Position numbers and translations under genes: made by a program
The notes under the pieces: generated by a model
The model's database searches: none
What the model saw: the letters and a program-made list of their open reading frames with translations, nothing else
Told to the model about the DNA's origin: nothing
Assembly (NCBI RefSeq): GCF_000686805.1
Contig: NZ_JMLP01000005.1
Location: forward strand, 306,307 to 370,306
Length of the DNA stretch: 64,000 bases
Reading direction: 5' to 3'
Origin: Bacillus sp. UNC41MFS5
GTDB lineage: Bacteria; Bacillota; Bacilli; Bacillales_B; DSM-18226
In this document: piece by piece, positions 4,500-43,720 of the stretch
How the letters are laid out: each line of letters begins with the position of its first letter
How positions within the stretch are numbered: position 1 is the stretch's first letter

Positions 4500-4604
4500 T
4501 ATGTTTGTAGCGCACCCGTGCTACAACCGCACAGAACAGGTCTTAAGTCTTTAACTTAAGTTTAAAGCGCCTGTGTATGGCGAGTCTGAGTTTATAAGGA
4601 GGTG
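4500..4604 (+). promoter_or_regulatory. L21 ribosomal protein leader
   Basis: The roughly 100-nt leader holds a hairpin TGTAGC / GCTACA (4506-4525). A second element has an ACAGG / CCTGT closing stem around a CTTAAG / CTTAAG inner stem. It ends at the AAGGAGGTG ribosome binding site of rplU (4596-4604). Position and layout match the L21 leader class of Firmicutes, which is thought to mediate autogenous control of rplU-prp-rpmA. Pairing was drawn by eye. Confidence 0.75.
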
Positions 4605-14657: not shown

Positions 14658-16805
14658 GTGAAGATCCATATCGTACAGAAAGGGGATACTCTTTGGAAGA
14701 TTGCCAAGAAGTACGGCGTGAATTTTGAAGAGCTGAAAAAGATGAATTCACAGCTCAGCAACCCTGATATGATTATGCCCGGTATGAAAATAAAGGTCCC
14801 AACTTCAGGTGGAACAATAAAAAAAGAAGCACCATTGGGAACTAAACCAGGTACAAAAATCACTTTAGGAACGAAGAAAGAACAGCCGCTTGCTGAGCAG
14901 CCGTTAGTCAAAGAGAAACCCATAAAAGAAGCACCGATTAAGGAAGCACCAATCAAAGCAATGCCGATTAAGGAAGCACCAATCAAAGAAGCGCCAATTA
15001 AGGAGGCACCAATTAAAGAGGCTCCAATCAAGGAAGCACCAATAATCAAAGAGGCACCAATAGCACCTTATACTCCAAAAATGCCCCTACAAATCGTCCC
15101 AGAAATTGATATTAACAACTATTACATGATGAACATGCAAAATATGACAGTACAACAACCACAATTGCCGCCTAAACCTGCCAATATCCTGCCTCAAATC
15201 AAAGAAGTACCAAAGAAAGAAATGCCAATTAAAGAAATGCCAATTAAAGAAATGCCTATAAAACAAATGCCAATCAAAGAAATGCCAATCAAAGAAGCAC
15301 CAATCAAAGAAATGCCAATCAAAGAAACACCCCTTGTTCCTGCACCGCCTCCAGTGATGGAAGCACCTGAACAGGTAGCACCGCAACAGGATTATTGTGT
15401 TCCAGTTACTCCAATCATGCCTGGACCAGGATTCTGTCCTCCATATGGCGGATTCCCGATGCCTATGCAACCATTCATGCCTTACCCACAAGGGCAAGGT
15501 GGGGTGATTCCAATGCCGCCAGTAATGCCAAGTGGGTTCCCGGGAAGTCCAGGGACAGTGCCATCTGTTGCAGGAACATCGTTTGTTGCACCGCATTTCG
15601 ATGAGGAATCATCCTTTATGCCGCAATTGCCTGTTATGAACCCAGCCTATAATCCGGGTGCAGTAATGGGCGCTCAATCACCACAGGCGCCAATGGGCTA
15701 CCCTTACATGGATCCGTCAGCATTCGGTCAAATGCCACAAGGCTATGGCCAGCCAACGATGCCAGGAGGCTTTGGACAAATGCCACAAGGGTTTGGCCAG
15801 CAAATGCCAGTAGGCTCAGGTCAAATGCCACAAGGATTTGGCCAGCAAATGCCAGTAGGCACAGGTCAAGTGCCACAAGGGTTTGGCCAGCAAATGCCAG
15901 CAGGCACAGGTCAAATGCCACAAGGATTTGATCAGCAAATGCCAGCAGGATTTGGACAAATGCCACAAGGGTTTGGCCAGCAAATGCCAGCAGGCTTCGG
16001 TCAAATGCCACAAGGGTTTGGCCAGCAAATGCCAGCAGGCTTTGATCAAATGCCACAAGGGTTTGGCCAGCAAATGCCAGCAGGCTTTGATCAAATGCCA
16101 CAAGGGTTTGGCCAGCAAATGCCAGCAGGATTTGGACAAATGCCACAAGGATTTGGTCAAATGCCAACCGGTTTCCCAATGGAAAGTCCTTCTGGATTTG
16201 AGATAGCACAAAATCCAGCTGGCTTTGCCCCATCTCCAGTAATGCCTGGTAGCATGTTCGGAAATCCTGCGATGGGAAATCCGTATGGAATGGGCGCACC
16301 GTATGGCCAAATGCCATTCGGCTACCCGCAAATGAGTGGTCCAATGGGTGTACCTGCACATTTTGAATCTCCAGAAATGGCTGGACCTGGTTCGTTCATG
16401 CTGCCACCTCAAGGTTTTCCAGCAGGAGCTGGAGGTGATTGCGGCTGCGGAGGGGCACCATCAGGAATGCCAGTGGGAATGTTGGCACCAATGGCGATGC
16501 CGCAGCAAGCACCAATGGCAATGCCGCAGCAAGCACCAATGGCAATGCCGCAGCAAGCACCAATGGCAATGCCGCAGCAAGCACCAATGGCAATGCCGCA
16601 ACAAGCACCAATGCAACAGCGGGAATCAATACAACAGCAAGCACCAATGGCACAAAACTTTGTGCCGCCAACCCCGCCAATATACAGTGCACCATATACA
16701 GGGCCTGTTAATGCAGCACAGCCTCCTTATATGAATCCATATGGTATGGGTCCGGTGGGAACAAGTCCTTATGGGATGCCTGGTTACCATGATGAGAGCC
16801 TTTAA
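14658..16805 (+). CDS. safA: Spore coat morphogenetic protein SafA, repeat-expanded
   Basis: SafA sits at the cortex-coat interface and directs inner coat assembly. A LysM peptidoglycan-binding domain covers residues 1-49 (IHIVQKGDTLWKIAKKYGV through MPGMKIKVP). The rest is low-complexity. PIKEA/PIKEM pentapeptides lie at about 86-135 and 186-226. About eight 15-residue Q/G/F/M/P units lie at about 371-500, and five AMPQQAP heptads at about 610-652. At 715 residues it is nearly twice B. subtilis SafA as I recall it (about 390). It starts with GTG after AGGAGGGG. The tail overlaps a CotS/YsxE-like gene. Confidence 0.92.
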   Translation: MKIHIVQKGDTLWKIAKKYGVNFEELKKMNSQLSNPDMIMPGMKIKVPTSGGTIKKEAPLGTKPGTKITLGTKKEQPLAEQPLVKEKPIKEAPIKEAPIKAMPIKEAPIKEAPIKEAPIKEAPIKEAPIIKEAPIAPYTPKMPLQIVPEIDINNYYMMNMQNMTVQQPQLPPKPANILPQIKEVPKKEMPIKEMPIKEMPIKQMPIKEMPIKEAPIKEMPIKETPLVPAPPPVMEAPEQVAPQQDYCVPVTPIMPGPGFCPPYGGFPMPMQPFMPYPQGQGGVIPMPPVMPSGFPGSPGTVPSVAGTSFVAPHFDEESSFMPQLPVMNPAYNPGAVMGAQSPQAPMGYPYMDPSAFGQMPQGYGQPTMPGGFGQMPQGFGQQMPVGSGQMPQGFGQQMPVGTGQVPQGFGQQMPAGTGQMPQGFDQQMPAGFGQMPQGFGQQMPAGFGQMPQGFGQQMPAGFDQMPQGFGQQMPAGFDQMPQGFGQQMPAGFGQMPQGFGQMPTGFPMESPSGFEIAQNPAGFAPSPVMPGSMFGNPAMGNPYGMGAPYGQMPFGYPQMSGPMGVPAHFESPEMAGPGSFMLPPQGFPAGAGGDCGCGGAPSGMPVGMLAPMAMPQQAPMAMPQQAPMAMPQQAPMAMPQQAPMAMPQQAPMQQRESIQQQAPMAQNFVPPTPPIYSAPYTGPVNAAQPPYMNPYGMGPVGTSPYGMPGYHDESL
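14918..15335 (+). repeat. 15-bp coding repeats in safA (PIKEA and PIKEM)
   Basis: Two blocks (about 14918-15062 and 15216-15335) of in-frame 15-bp units encode PIKEA or PIKEM pentapeptides. Units vary at third positions (AAA/AAG, ATT/ATC), so the array is old or under selection for the peptide. Confidence 0.8.
15771..16160 (+). repeat. 45-bp coding tandem repeat in safA
   Basis: About eight 15-residue units of the form QQMP(A/V)G(F/T/S)(G/D)QMPQGFG are encoded by near-identical 45-bp DNA. The low divergence suggests recent expansion and possible copy-number variation between strains. Confidence 0.85.
16488..16612 (+). repeat. 21-bp coding tandem repeat in safA
   Basis: Five nearly identical 21-bp units encode the heptad AMPQQAP. 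The DNA is almost invariant between copies, so this block also looks recently amplified. Confidence 0.85.
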
Positions 16806-18625: not shown

Positions 18626-18712
18626 AACATGTCATGGAGGATAAAAAGGCAAAATAAGGCTAAACTATTACTGTATAGAAGGTTCAATTTTTAACAATAA
18701 GAGGTGAGTAGC

Positions 18713-19267
18713 ATGAGGTATCATTGGATGGCATGGTTTAGGTATATGTTCGCCGGATTCGCTGTTCTTCTCTTCATGTTTATTATTAATGCCAAGGAAA
18801 TGACCATTATTGGCTCAGCCGCACCCATGGATTACCATCAGAAAGAGGAAAAAACTGAACCTTTAAATATTAAGGTTATTTTGGAAAGGGTATATTTGGA
18901 TGGGGAAATAAGTCAAGAAGTGGTCAATGAGACATGCTGGTCCTTGGAGAACTTTTGGGCTAAGTATGACCAATGGCAGCCGATCGACATTGACGGATCG
19001 ACATTGGTTTTTCAAAAACAAGTCAATGACATATCTCCCTTGCTGAAAGCAAATGGCTTTTTTGGAATTACCGAAGAGGGTGTTTTGAGCATTTTTAATG
19101 GAAAACCTGACCAATTAAGAATTATCCAATCATTTTTTCAAATAGATATTAAGAGACTCGAGAGCACAAAGCAAGAAGAATTAATTCAAGGCATTCCAAT
19201 CAAAAATAAGAATCGATATGTAGAAGTGTTAGAGACATTTAAGCCTTATTCTTTAAAAAAAGAATAG
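18713..19267 (+). CDS. bofC: Forespore regulator BofC
   Basis: BofC is a forespore protein that restrains SpoIVB and so delays pro-sigma-K processing. The 184-residue protein has an N-terminal membrane or signal segment (about 8-27, FRYMFAGFAVLLFMFIINA) and an exported domain of about 130 residues. Identification uses the size, the membrane anchor, the sequence and its position before ruvA as in B. subtilis. GAGGTGAG is placed for ATG 18713; GTG 18704 lies within it. Its targets SpoIVFA/FB are encoded near the start of the window. Confidence 0.85.
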   Translation: MRYHWMAWFRYMFAGFAVLLFMFIINAKEMTIIGSAAPMDYHQKEEKTEPLNIKVILERVYLDGEISQEVVNETCWSLENFWAKYDQWQPIDIDGSTLVFQKQVNDISPLLKANGFFGITEEGVLSIFNGKPDQLRIIQSFFQIDIKRLESTKQEELIQGIPIKNKNRYVEVLETFKPYSLKKE

Positions 19268-19318: not shown

Positions 19319-19352
19319 AAAAATAGAGATCGATTAGGGTGTTTCAGTGGTG

Positions 19353-19513
19353 CAATGAGCGAATTTCGATGTTCAATGAGCGAATTCCGCACTAAAATGA
19401 GCGAATCCAATTTCTATCAGCGAATTCCAAGCATCTATCAGCGAATATCGCAATTCTATCAGCGAATTCCCAACTTCAATCGGCGAATATCGCAATTCTA
19501 TCAGCGAATCGAA
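19353..19513. repeat. 21-bp tandem array with GCGAAT core
   Basis: Eight copies of GCGAAT start at 19359, 19380, 19401, 19420, 19441, 19462, 19483 and 19504, so the period is 21 bp with one 19-bp step. The first three copies are preceded by AATGA and the last five by ATCA or ATCG. The rest of each unit varies. The stretch between bofC and ruvA contains no credible gene: the frame that crosses it reads only the repeat. Confidence 0.85.
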
Positions 19514-19597
19514 AAATCCCCCTCCTTGCGAAGCCGTATTCCGAATAGTTCGATGTTTCTCCCAATAGTTATTTTCTATAACTTACGTAAAATTGTA

Positions 19598-19606
19598 TGG
19601 TAGAAT
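19598..19606 (+). promoter_or_regulatory. Extended -10 promoter of ruvAB
   Basis: TGG-TAGAAT forms an extended -10 about 35 bp before ruvA. No clear -35 is visible 17 bp upstream, which extended -10 promoters can tolerate. Confidence 0.5.
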
Positions 19607-19640
19607 GAAATACAGTGCAAAACTAGGGGAGAGAATGCAA

Positions 19641-20252
19641 GTGTACGAATTTTTTAAAGGGACCGTCGAATTTGTCGGTCCAGAATATATCGTGATTGAA
19701 AACAACGGAATCGGCTACCAAATCGCAACACCCAATCCGTTTATCTATGCGGGTAAAATGGAAACAATGGTAACAGTATATACCTATCATTATGTTCGTG
19801 AGGATATCAATGCCCTCTACGGCTTTGAAACTAGAGAAGAGAAAAAGCTTTTTACAAAATTATTAAATGTCTCAGGAATTGGTCCAAAAGGGGCACTCGC
19901 CATACTTGCTTCTGGTGAAGTGCAGCAGGTGGTTACGGCTGTTGAAAATGAGGATGAGAGTTTCCTTGTCAAATTCCCGGGAGTTGGCAAAAAAACAGCC
20001 CGTCAAATGATCCTGGACCTAAAAGGAAAATTGCAGGACATTGTTCCAGATTACTTCCCTAACTTATTTAATGCTGACCAACTTGAGCTGCATACACAAA
20101 AGGGTAATTCAAATTTAGAAGAAGCCATTCTTGCCCTGAAAGCATTAGGTTATTCCGAGAAAGAAATCAAAAAGATAACACCTGAGTTAAGAAAAGAACA
20201 AATGTCTACGGACCAATACATTAAAAAAGCCCTGCAGCGGCTTTTAAAATAG
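19641..20252 (+). CDS. ruvA: Holliday junction helicase subunit RuvA
   Basis: RuvA binds four-way junctions and loads RuvB for branch migration. The OB-fold start [19 protein letters not shown] is typical. Two helix-hairpin-helix motifs follow ([16 protein letters not shown] and [13 protein letters not shown]), and a C-terminal domain binds RuvB. I prefer GTG 19641, which gives the family-typical first residues 10 nt after AGGGGA. ATG 19635 is the alternative. It forms an operon with ruvB. Confidence 0.94.
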
Positions 20253-37332: not shown

Positions 37333-37618
37333 AATAAAATGACATATTGTGATATACCAATGATGGAGCATAGTAATTAAGCAAACTCATGAATAGAGAG
37401 GAAATGTCCTGGGCTGAAAGCATTTCTACATGGAACTTAATGAATGAACACTCCGTAGGCTTCTCTCTGAAAAAGGGTACCCTCTAGTAGGAGAAGAACG
37501 TAGCAGGCGTTAACTGTTAAAGAGGAAGTGCATGTTGTTTATGCCTTCAACTAGGGTGGCACCGCGGGATTATTCAAACTCTCGTCCCTTGTATTCATAC
37601 AAGGGATGGGAGTTTTTT
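37333..37618 (+). promoter_or_regulatory. T-box leader of hisS-aspS
   Basis: The leader contains the T-box consensus AGGGTGGCACCGCGGG (37553-37568). A long intrinsic terminator follows (37577-37618, stem AAACTCTCGTCCCTTGTA with its complement, then TTTTTT). The stem I base pairs GGAG with CTCC, and the AGTA / GAA loop-E elements are visible. Uncharged tRNA bound to the T-box stabilises an antiterminator. The specifier region reads GAATGAACACTCC; CAC (His, 37449-37451) is the likely specifier, but the register is not certain. Confidence 0.9.
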
Positions 37619-40803: not shown

Positions 40804-41018
40804 AACAAAGAAGAGTCCTGAGATGTACGTTGCGTTGCCTGAAGTTTTGACCGAACATTAATTATCCGGGAGTCTAGAGTTTCCTGATTGCGTAAATGCC
40901 CCACTCTAATACGGGTAAGGGGACTTACAATTTCGGGAACAGGACACCCACCTGCTGAATGCGGGATCAAAACTAAGGATGTTAAAAGTGACGGCATAAT
41001 TGGGACTCTTTTCTATTT
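40804..41018 (+). ncRNA. ssrS: 6S RNA (BsrA-like)
   Basis: 6S RNA binds sigma-A RNA polymerase and mimics an open promoter. This region between aspS and tcdA (yrvM) is where B. subtilis encodes its 6S-1 RNA. The ends pair: AAGAAGAGTCC near 40808-40818 with GGGACTCTTTT near 41002-41012. The interior has the AGTTTTGACCGAACATT and GGGATCAAAACTAAGG segments that I associate with Bacillus 6S RNA. A promoter sits just upstream and a terminator just downstream. Exact mature ends are estimated. Confidence 0.85.
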
Positions 41019-41120: not shown

Positions 41121-41170
41121 TTTAATCGGGAAAAAGAAACATAACGAATTTAATAATTGGAGTGAACATT

Positions 41171-41938
41171 ATGTTGCATCAATTTTCACGTAACGAACTT
41201 GCCATCGGTAAAGAAGGCCTAGAAATTATGAAAAACAGTACGGTCGCTGTTTTAGGTATCGGCGGTGTCGGTTCTTTTGCAGCCGAAGCATTGGCCCGTT
41301 CAGGGGTCGGCCGGTTAATTTTAATAGATAAAGACGATGTAGATATTACCAATATCAACCGCCAGTTGATCGCTTTGCTTTCCACTGTTGGTAGGCCGAA
41401 AGTGGAAATTATGGAGGAGCGGATTAGAGATATTAATCCTGACTGCGAAGTTATTTCCTTAAAAATGTTTTATACAGAAGAAACCTATGAACAGATTTTT
41501 AGCCATAATTTAGATTTTGTGGTTGATGCCTCTGATACGATTATTTATAAAATACATTTAATGAAGGAATGTTTAAAAAGAAATATTCCAATCATTTCAA
41601 GTATGGGAGCAGCTAATAAAATGGACCCAACCCGTTTTAAAATTGCTGATATTTCAAAGACTCATACGGATCCAATTGCCAAAGTCATCCGTACGAAACT
41701 GCGTAAGGAACGAATCCACAAAGGAATTCCGGTCGTGTTCTCTGATGAAAGCCCGATTGTGATTCGTGAAGATATTAAAAAAGAAGTAGGAAATGAAAAT
41801 GCACCAATCCGCAAAGCGCAAATGCCGCCTGCATCAAATGCCTTTGTTCCATCAGCTGCTGGTTTGATTATGGCAAGCTATGTGGTGCGACAATTATTAA
41901 GCAGCATTAAAATTCAACGTGTATCGGATGAGAAATAA
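41171..41938 (+). CDS. tcdA: tRNA threonylcarbamoyladenosine dehydratase
   Basis: TcdA (YrvM) is an E1-like enzyme that cyclises t6A37 of tRNA to ct6A using ATP. The 255-residue protein has the nucleotide-binding GIGGVGSFAAEALARSG (about residues 27-43) and the DKDDVDITNINRQ stretch typical of ThiF-fold proteins. ATG 41171 is chosen because TTGGAGTG lies upstream. The 9-bp longer GTG frame lacks a ribosome binding site. In B. subtilis rarA follows directly; here about 3.7 kb intervenes. Confidence 0.94.
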   Translation: MLHQFSRNELAIGKEGLEIMKNSTVAVLGIGGVGSFAAEALARSGVGRLILIDKDDVDITNINRQLIALLSTVGRPKVEIMEERIRDINPDCEVISLKMFYTEETYEQIFSHNLDFVVDASDTIIYKIHLMKECLKRNIPIISSMGAANKMDPTRFKIADISKTHTDPIAKVIRTKLRKERIHKGIPVVFSDESPIVIREDIKKEVGNENAPIRKAQMPPASNAFVPSAAGLIMASYVVRQLLSSIKIQRVSDEK

Positions 41939-41980
41939 GCTTTTTTGTTTTGCCCTGAACATTTATTGGTTTGGGGTTTT

Positions 41981-42605
41981 TCTAGAGGAGATTCTACGTG
42001 CCCGACCACATGAGAAAAAGGGTAGGAGGGTAACGTAGGGTGGTTCTACGAGCCCGAAGGCGTGAGAAAAAGGATAAGAGTGTAACGTGGGGAGGCTCTA
42101 TGTGCCTAATCGAATGAGATAAAGTGGTAGAGGGTAACGTAGGGAGGTTTTACGAGCCCGAAGGCGTGAGAAAAAGGATAAAAGGGTAACATAGGGAGGT
42201 TCTATGTGCCTAGCCGCATGAGATAAAGTGGTAGAGTGTAACGTAGGGAGCTTCTACGAGCCCGAACGCGTGAGAAAAAGGATAAAAGGGTAACGTGGGG
42301 AGGCTCTACGTGCCTAGCCGCATGAGATAAAGTGGTAGAGAGTAACGTAGGGAGGTTCTACGAGCCCGAACGCGTGAGAAAAGGATAAAAGGGTAACGTG
42401 GGGAGGCTCTACGTGCCTAGCCGCATGAGATAAAGTGGTAAAGGGTAACGTAGGGAGGTTCTACGTACCCGACCACATGAGAAAAAGTGTGAGTGGGTAA
42501 CGTAGGAAGGTTCAACGTTACCAAACTCGTGTAAAGTAAGTTGGGAGGGGAACATAGAAAAGTCTATGTGCTCCAAACTTAGAAAAGAAGAACGAGGTAA
42601 CGTGC
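41981..42605. repeat. 52-bp tandem array with a conserved hairpin per unit
   Basis: Eleven hairpin modules begin at 42034, 42086, 42138, 42190, 42242, 42294, 42346, 42397, 42449, 42501 and 42553, so the step is 52 bp with a single 51. A degenerate twelfth is at about 41981. Each has a 5-bp stem such as CGTAG / CTACG around about 7 nt. Two linker types alternate, one with CGAGCCCGAACGCG and one with TGTGCCTAGCCGCA, giving a 104-bp higher order. No credible gene lies inside. The 699-bp gap after tcdA holds little else. Confidence 0.92.
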
Positions 42606-42636
42606 ATGCCAAATTCTTGGAAATAGCCTCCACCAT

Positions 42637-43545
42637 TCATTCATAGTAGAACCATCGACCATAACCAATTGCTTTATAATTTTTCATTAATATTCTCCTA
42701 ATCATCTTCTTTGACTTAATCACCCTACACCATTCATAAACCAGACTAGTGGTAATTTTTATATCAGGAAAAAGAAACTTTAGTTCTTCCACGGTACGTA
42801 GTACTGCTGATTCGATAGATTCTACATCTCCACATTTTTCACAAACAACAACCTTTTCTCCATCAGAAACCATAAATGAGTTGCATTTTGTATGGACAAT
42901 TCCCTTCGTCAGTTTTCGATATTCATAAGTAGGTAACCGATTAGGATAGGGGGATTTATTTGAATGCAATGATATTAAACGCTCAGCTAACTTTTTGTGT
43001 CTGTCATTTAGTTTTGATGGTGTCCTGTCGAAATCTTCCATAAATCCATTAATCTGAGTTGGATAAACAATCGGCTGGTTAAGAGGCGCTTGATATAAGG
43101 TAAACGTGGGGTTTATAAAAATGACAGTTGTTTTAATGGATATGTTATAACCGAGATTTTAAAGCAACTGGTGGAGTAATAATTTACTACGTTTTATCTG
43201 GTCTAATGGATTAGTAATATCGTTCCCGGCTATTTTATGAAATCCTTCAGAGTCGTAAAAATAATCTCCAGAGTAATTTTTTATCTCAAATGGATAAATT
43301 GTATTTTGAGCAATGATTAACGTATCAATTTGAAATACTGTGTCGTTAATCTCAAGGCATAAGTCATTTATAACAAACATATCACTTTGAAGCTTTTCTG
43401 TTAAAAGATCAAACATTAATTCACCTTGGTAACCTTTCTCAAGTTTAAAATAGTATTTCTTTTCTTTTGAAGAGAGATTACTTCGTGCATTTAAAGCTCT
43501 CATAATTTTTAATTCAGTTGATTCAGAACGATACTTTAATGGCAT
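42637..43545 (-). pseudogene. NERD-domain protein interrupted by one nonsense codon
   Basis: The minus-strand frame 43545-42637 is continuous for 303 codons except for one TAA at 43161-43159 (codon 129). The N-terminal part carries a nuclease-related (NERD) domain (GYQGELMFD, IDTLIIAQNTIYPFEIKNYSG). After the stop the same frame continues with NLGYNISIKTTVIFINP, then a two-CxxC zinc-ribbon-like segment (HTKCNS and CEKCGD) and a basic C-terminus ending GYGRWFYYE. CAA to TAA would explain the stop. NERD function is not settled; nuclease activity is only predicted. Confidence 0.85.
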
Positions 43546-43720
43546 GGTCTACTTCCTCTCATTTAATAAAACCCAATCTAATCTTATAAAACCTTAGGTG
43601 TGATGTGTATGAATATTTTGTTAAAATTTGGCGAATCAATTTTTGATGTTATCATTATAGAGGTAAATTTTTCTAGAATAAGATAAACTAGTGTGAGAAT
43701 ATATAGCGAGGAGAGAGAGT

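Follow-up and report, generated by a model that had tools for sequence, protein, structure and literature searches.

The window analysed here, a stretch of 64,000 nucleotides from Bacillus sp. UNC41MFS5, carries a tandem array of 52-bp units between a ThiF-family gene and a gene for a NERD-domain protein. The locus is made up of the following features.

41162..41938, plus strand: ThiF-family gene (by family match), the upstream conserved neighbour and anchor for the locus survey
41952..41983, plus strand: terminator-like hairpin with a T-run, belonging to the upstream gene and abutted by the first array unit
41978..42600, plus strand: 52-bp phased array of 11 clear units and a twelfth near 42549 that is weaker by eye (motif scan, Tandem Repeats Finder)
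42030..42054, plus strand: example palindrome with arms GTAACGTAG and CTACGAGCC, three mismatched outer pairs and a 7-nt loop, then the 27-bp A-rich linker
41984..43659, no strand: module of 1,676 bp comprising the array, the NERD gene and some 114 bp of sequence before the start of that gene (delimited by comparison with relatives)
42637..43545, minus strand: NERD-domain gene running towards the array, a single frame of about 302 codons that includes zinc-ribbon cysteines (Pfam, tblastn)

The ThiF-family gene is presumably tcdA. A motif-only scan, with the linker excluded from the pattern, places the unit starts at 41978, 42030, 42082, 42134, 42186, 42238, 42290, 42342, 42393, 42445 and 42497, so that every step is 52 bp except one of 51 bp. 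This is the same count and spacing of eleven modules described by the first-pass annotation, a model's reading of the sequence alone, and the stem variants quoted there are all present. Tandem Repeats Finder (TRF) reports period 52 at 41987-42518 (score 552) and period 104 at 41993-42487 (score 771); since the latter is found, the 104-bp higher unit of two alternating linker types, also described there, is real. The array is intergenic and its unit length is no multiple of 3; its linkers recur, and there is little difference between the units of one array. A related pattern with up to two mismatches matches six times in the window against 0.01 expected, and the best background score of a 28-nt weight matrix, over 160 kb of a relative on both strands, is 6.2 bits, array units being called at 16 bits or more. 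A chance origin of the window array matches is excluded.

Each unit consists of 9-nt arms around a 7-nt loop, with outer pairs that are often mismatched, followed by a linker. The loop is as first annotated, but the stem, given there as 5 bp, is longer at 9 bp. Compensatory change in the stem, claimed from the window's units, is supported by 53 units from many genomes: the covariation score is reached by none of 500 shuffles, paired stem cells make up 84.9% against 80.4% in shuffles (a share likewise reached by 0 of 500), and both sides change in five of nine stem pairs (a number reached by 13 of 500), though these shuffle counts are no probabilities because the units are related. Slid controls all fall below the observed pairing and covariation of these 53 units. 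Among 96 consensus units of the 52-bp class, which like the 101 near loci described below hold some loci twice (ThiF loci having been fetched in two ways), an uninterrupted stem of at least 6 occurs in 50, against 103 of 1,920 shuffles, and none of at least 5 in 25; loops are mostly 5, 7 or 9. Among seven consensus units of 61-63 bp, six reach a stem of at least 8. At 40-42 bp, a stem of at least 5 is found in 5 of 12 units and not in the other seven, and 0 of 4 units of 21 bp have a stem of that length. The palindrome is thus common but not general.

The first-pass annotation saw the array and overlooked the partner gene next door. In the window, an in-frame stop near codon 130 splits the NERD gene into ORFs 43159-43545 and 42637-43041. 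The N-terminal ORF matches the Pfam NERD family (E 1.5e-14), and the C-terminal ORF matches no Pfam family. The gene has one full-length tblastn match in a single frame, at 55% identity, and is the sole NERD gene that tblastn detects in the window. A Pfam scan of five window proteins found no transposase domain.

The proteins linked to arrays score above the cut-off of the NERD profile (PF08378). Across 77 NERD sequences, E42, Q72 and K89 are invariant, as are cysteines 218, 221, 235 and 238 of the putative zinc ribbon, and D74 is nearly so. The array-linked protein thus shows features of the PD-(D/E)XK nuclease type, and nuclease activity is predicted. A structure model built from the 77 sequences is confident (mean pLDDT 94.8) and supersedes an earlier, poor model from 5 sequences (pLDDT 50.4). 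NERD is the sole certain domain in Pfam, an RPB9-type zinc ribbon staying below threshold, and weak matches to solved structures include zinc-ribbon subunits of RNA polymerase. We infer that the C-terminal helices form a DNA-binding fold. NERD proteins in general share the domain match and the catalytic-type residues with this subfamily, which adds the zinc-ribbon cysteines and a helical C-terminus; proteins with the NERD core only are without arrays (0 of 21). Elsewhere, a figure legend names NERD as a putative CRISPR auxiliary gene (PMC10910872). A known anti-phage defence gene was also considered and rejected: of two NERD proteins scanned with PADLOC, one gave a weak match at E 0.027 over 70 of 1607 model positions and the other gave none. 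Plasmids and phages yielded neither the NERD protein nor copies of the window's array type.

Comparison with relatives defines the limits of the module. The window matches G039 and G001, the two nearest relatives, up to 41983 and again from 43660, and where the window has the module G039 carries just 19 bp and G001 18 bp. The first-pass annotation had placed the array in a block that breaks synteny with B. subtilis; this fits in so far as these two relatives, with which the comparison was made, lack the block. The module is present in G044 and G058 and absent from the nearer G039 and G001, which allows loss as well as gain. No terminal repeats or target duplication are obvious by eye at the module ends.

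The ThiF locus was compared in 60 genomes and the window, and 14 of these 61 sequences hold a 51-53-bp array there. Such an array accompanies 13 of 15 loci with NERD as opposed to 1 of 44 without it (Fisher p 3.5e-10, the truncated loci L243 and L272 being left out). The lone array without NERD belongs to G059, and NERD without a clear array is seen in G052 and G024; in G052 (L237) the NERD gene is broken and a single unit is left. The array type at this locus varies between species. Array and gene therefore mostly occur together at the window's locus, where their joint presence and absence is shown. A 21-bp array without NERD occupies the ThiF locus of G007 (L216, 929-1025).

The association extends to other loci. 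The NERD subfamily, searched for from a five-sequence alignment, occurs in 179 of 193 genomes of the family, with 1 to 11 matches per genome where present (at most 12 candidates scored). Comparison of flanking genes indicates that NERD proteins adjoin arrays at unrelated loci, and many of these arrays are unrelated in sequence to that of the window. Seventy high-scoring NERD loci, the best-scoring among the matches listed and not a random sample, were scanned up to 1 kb on each side, a self-identity of at least 0.62 counting as a pass. A phased array lies within 1 kb 3′ of 65 of the 68 genes with enough 3′ flank (the contig-end loci L167 and L301 were left out), 61 of the 65 at a lag of 51-53 or 102-105. 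On the 5′ side 0 of 70 pass, and of 160 background pieces 5 do so whatever the lag. The three exceptions are L305, with no array, and L162 and L163, with a weak signal (0.59) at lag 52. Among 29 further NERD loci from the class, 26 of them outside the family, all pass on the 3′ side and one on the 5′ side. In contrast, none of 21 NERD-core-only proteins outside the class has an array on either side (Fisher p 1.6e-17 for 65/68 against 0/21). The link between gene and array is well supported, and a placement of the array mainly 3′ of the NERD gene is shown by computation.

Strict 3′ placement holds only in the near clade, because periodic stretches also occur 5′ in 6 of 32 far NERD loci, compared with one in the near group of 101. 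No 3′ periodicity is seen in 7 of the 32 far loci. The 5′ stretches have lags of 41 (L335), 42 (L354), 32 (L355), 82 (L356), 49 (L359) and 20 (L361). At several loci, for instance G018:C43, G030:C14, G051:C8 and G033:C201, the NERD gene ends 100-300 bp from a contig end. Assemblies seem to break in arrays, so unit numbers from draft genomes are unsure.

Gene and array also show joint descent. Array sequence types require 20 changes on the NERD tree (41 labelled rows), fewer than in any of 300 shuffles, where the minimum is 29. Identity between arrays rises with identity between their NERD proteins (Mantel r 0.38, 0 of 2,000, 86 loci). Mapping the period classes onto a tree of 123 NERD proteins takes 9 changes, a figure given without shuffle control. 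Pairs of NERD proteins at 55-65% identity mostly have unlike arrays of the same period. As gene and array are linked, joint evolution here means that they travel together, which is no proof of recognition.

The length of the unit follows the NERD clade. In the 29 further loci, the TRF period is 51-53 bp for NERD proteins with 41% or more identity to a query; among those more distant, most have about 41, 62-63 or 21 bp. The 101 near loci have lags of 52 (81 loci), 51 (6), 53 (4), 43 (1) and 15 (6), with none in 3; the six lag-15 loci were taken as low complexity or N runs and left out, and in two of these, L317 and L321, the TRF periods are 51 and 52. The 32 far loci, which include 20 more distant ones, have lags of 21 (3), 40 (1), 41 (7), 42 (3), 51 (1), 61 (3), 62 (3), 63 (1), 83 (1) and 103 (2), with none in 7. 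Two further distant loci have lags of 40 and 82. Within arrays the step is kept closely: in 112 arrays of the ACGTAG type, 617 of 699 steps are exactly 52 bp, 49 are 51 and 10 are 53.

Grouped by unit sequence, these loci form 52 clusters with periods of 21, 40-42, 51-53, 61-63 and 83 bp, which lie close to whole multiples of some 10.4 bp (R 0.95). The count of 3 at 21 bp may be 2, since L357, a low-complexity and probably coding locus, was retained by its lag. The optimum is broad, with R still 0.93 for 10.0 bp and 0.90 for 11.0 bp. The 18 clusters outside the 5-turn class give R 0.92 by themselves, a value reached by 0 of 20,000 random sets, and the true strength of the rule lies below these figures because clusters partly share ancestry, period classes being common within NERD clades. 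That the period amounts to whole helical turns over unrelated sequences is well supported.

These results bear on the idea of a neutral satellite, in which replication slippage made the arrays and the link to the gene is due to chance or simple linkage. The near-identical units within one array are what slippage or unequal exchange gives. However, the same period recurs over unrelated sequences, linker length is kept, palindromes are present, and the arrays are linked to one protein subfamily with negative controls, all of which make this account very improbable. The first-pass annotation had said that copies explained as simple slippage products of one sequence would undo its reading; that origin is disfavoured by the common period, the palindromes and the gene link.

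A multi-hairpin RNA is a second alternative: the arrays would be transcribed as hairpin RNAs, with NERD as processing enzyme or bystander. The paired stem change agrees with this, and RNA-seq reads are described as transcription over 52-nt repeats in B. coagulans (PMC8625621). A plus-strand RNA is predicted to tolerate G-U well above A-C, but mismatches of the two types number 106 and 84 (p 0.13), and DNA fits better than RNA because wobble pairs show no clear strand polarity. A terminator-like hairpin separates the stop codon from the array in 19 of 44 cases, against 0.6 expected, and follows the array in 2 of 44; in the window, the array starts directly after the T-run of the upstream gene. 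At gathering thresholds, Rfam has no match between 41011 and 55231, array included, and spacing by helical turns has no reason in RNA. Although the covariance supports pairing, RNA as the main level was rejected on wobble polarity, terminators and period quantisation, and is judged improbable. Transcription of the arrays, including read-through, is possible and compatible with the terminator placement. Of the three options left side by side in the first-pass annotation, a protein-binding array, a multi-hairpin RNA and a mobile repeat, a protein-bound DNA array travelling with its gene is thus favoured, and the RNA is disfavoured as the main level.

Arrays of the window's type are widespread among relatives in genus and family. 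Within the genus, BLAST with the window array hits 24 of 61 genomes, and a covariance model of the 53 units at least 55 of 61 at E 0.001 or better. At E 1e-5 the model matches at least 61 of 193 family genomes, in 10 of 25 genera, and, in a class sample with 14 candidates scored per genome, at least 2 of 398, both in the same family. These counts are lower bounds because limited numbers of candidates were scored per genome. Exact-pattern matches occur in Neobacillus rhizophilus, N. mesonae, N. dielmonensis, Bacillus marasmi and two Bacillus sp. strains. In G053, a single contig of 5.19 Mb, 148 units are listed, grouping into 27 arrays.

The arrays persist at their sites. Among units with exact spacing, loci of one genome are 80% identical in stems and 45% in linkers (516 pairs), non-orthologous loci of different genomes 76% and 42%, and 11 orthologous array pairs 90% and 80%. 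The arrays are therefore old at their sites, with linkers that are free in sequence but not in length. The evidence for active spread is weak, since orthologous arrays stay in place and unlike linkers show no recent copying. Against the best explanation given below, a NERD ORF neighbours only 2 of 24 fetched array loci in G053. L092, from the same genome, has nine units beside a NERD ORF of just 115 aa.

Such persistence could be expected of a host-serving nucleoid or boundary element, in which NERD proteins and their phased arrays would be kept for organising the chromosome or insulating gene ends, for instance by holding supercoils or by stopping polymerase behind terminators, their spread being incidental. 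Orthologous arrays are kept between species, and the arrays follow same-strand genes: the strands of the flanking genes of 78 array pieces, which include single units and strand-split parts and whose genes were called by ORF length only, are (+,+) in 33 cases versus (-,-) in 10, and convergent (+,-) in 28 versus divergent (-,+) in 6, one piece being without an upstream call. In G053, 24 of 27 arrays point with replication if the terminus lies at the GC-skew switch (2.47-2.55 Mb); the alignment may reflect gene direction. A proposal of Subirana and Messeguer, that a protein polymerises on such repeats (PMC8161180), also agrees with a nucleoid role. What speaks against it is the patchy presence of the arrays, as in the 14 of 61 sequences at the ThiF locus, the number of NERD matches, which ranges from 1 to 11 among genomes with the gene, and the decay of NERD while arrays stay, as with the stop codon in the window and the short ORF at L092. 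A host-serving element is therefore considered unlikely, if more credible than an RNA. In L070 (G053 129000-134000), two opposite arrays lie tail to tail between convergent genes, each behind its own gene.

The arrays by themselves belong to a known class. Repeats of 52 nt and 20-21 nt with constant length and variable sequence are described in Bacillus and Firmicutes (Subirana and Messeguer, 2019, 2021; PMC6749651, PMC8161180). The window array has at least four repeats of 51-53 nt, and the related arrays are constant in size, variable in sequence and several per genome (27 in G053); the window array is taken as a member of this class. Published and present arrays are alike in period (51-53), in their many arrays per genome and in short motifs with their reverse in each unit. 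PMC8161180 reports no evidence for a Cas-like protein interacting with the 52-nt repeats and offers two views of their role, one of a protein that may polymerise on them and stabilise the nucleoid and the other of small RNAs; it equates 20-21 nt with two helical turns and reports only two family sizes. Relative to this work, the present analysis adds a candidate partner gene, three further sizes (near 41, 62 and 83 bp), a rule of helical turns over all sizes, stem covariation and a module-free site. A term search does not find NERD in the main texts of PMC8161180, PMC6749651 and PMC8625621, and no report joining NERD to tandem repeats is among the matches listed in the open literature, subscription papers lying outside it.

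Other systems offer partial parallels. Like the REPtron, which pairs REP sequences with RAYT (PMC3733652), the locus combines a DNA-processing gene with its own palindromes, solo palindromes are dispersed outside genes, the type is tied to the enzyme, and presence is variable. In contrast to the REPtron, which has an HUH tyrosine transposase and single or paired hairpins, the partner here is a NERD protein of PD-(D/E)XK type, and the repeats form tandem, helically phased arrays mainly 3′ of it. Membership of that group was rejected, as the neighbour is a PF08378 NERD gene instead of an HUH transposase, and the GTAG or CGTC tag that marks one end of the 20-40 bp REP palindromes is missing: GTAG lies inside the stem of one type and many types are without it. 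CRISPR loci share a regular array beside a nuclease-type gene, with a palindromic and a variable part; here, however, the linkers recur within an array and are not captured spacers, and there are dozens of arrays in a single genome. With linkers that recur instead of unique spacers, the locus was rejected as CRISPR. The combined gene-array system could not be matched to any known kind found, while the arrays alone are a known class for which a polymerising protein was already guessed in print.

The array and the NERD gene are best explained as a chromosomal, REPtron-like two-part element acting on duplex DNA, a reading to which we give a probability of roughly 0.6. The array would be the DNA half, and the adjacent protein, with its nuclease fold, zinc ribbon and helical C-terminus, the other half. 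The NERD protein is predicted to bind the phased palindromes, most likely recognising that of each unit as duplex DNA. Unit spacing would correspond to 5 turns, or 52 bp, in the main clade and to about 2, 4, 6 or 8 turns elsewhere. Because this spacing equals whole helical turns, bound molecules would line up on one face and could join along the array. The module, sitting behind the terminators of host genes, would do little harm. Arrays at other sites in the genome that lack the gene may be copies or relics on which the protein could still act in trans, like REPs with RAYT transposases. From these comparisons we infer that NERD molecules would bind and cut the DNA, join along the array and act in trans, and that the repeats would arise and spread through cutting or repair.

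A tentative extension, possible but somewhat doubtful, is that the repeats are self-amplifying and phase-locked, with NERD as a putative ruler that both makes and reads the array. In this scenario NERD would cut or nick a bound palindrome, and repair would copy the stretch up to the next bound molecule. The number of turns between neighbours in a protein filament would fix the unit length, each clade writing its own period, and its products would be the 52-nt, and perhaps also the 20-21-nt, satellites published for Bacillus. The literature has described constant-length Bacillus satellites since 2019, naming no partner and giving no reason for their length. The partner subfamily and the helical rule make the question testable at the bench with one protein, one array and one phase shift. 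If NERD does build arrays, this would represent a new way of making bacterial satellite DNA and a natural protein-DNA ruler.

Other repeats and RNAs are present in the window. About eight 21-bp units with the core ATCAGCGAAT, or near it, lie at 19345-19511 behind a terminator-like hairpin. They stand between the plus-strand genes 18704-19267 and 19593-20252 and are of the same kind as the published 20-21-nt class. By likeness, we take these two genes to be bofC and ruvA. Repeat runs of 15, 18, 24, 30 and 45 bp (TRF) at 14908-16648 are multiples of three and probably encode a repetitive protein. Rfam identifies T-box leaders at 37351 and 55232, an L21 leader at 4515, and a 6S RNA (89 bits) at 40812-41010, just upstream of the ThiF-family gene.
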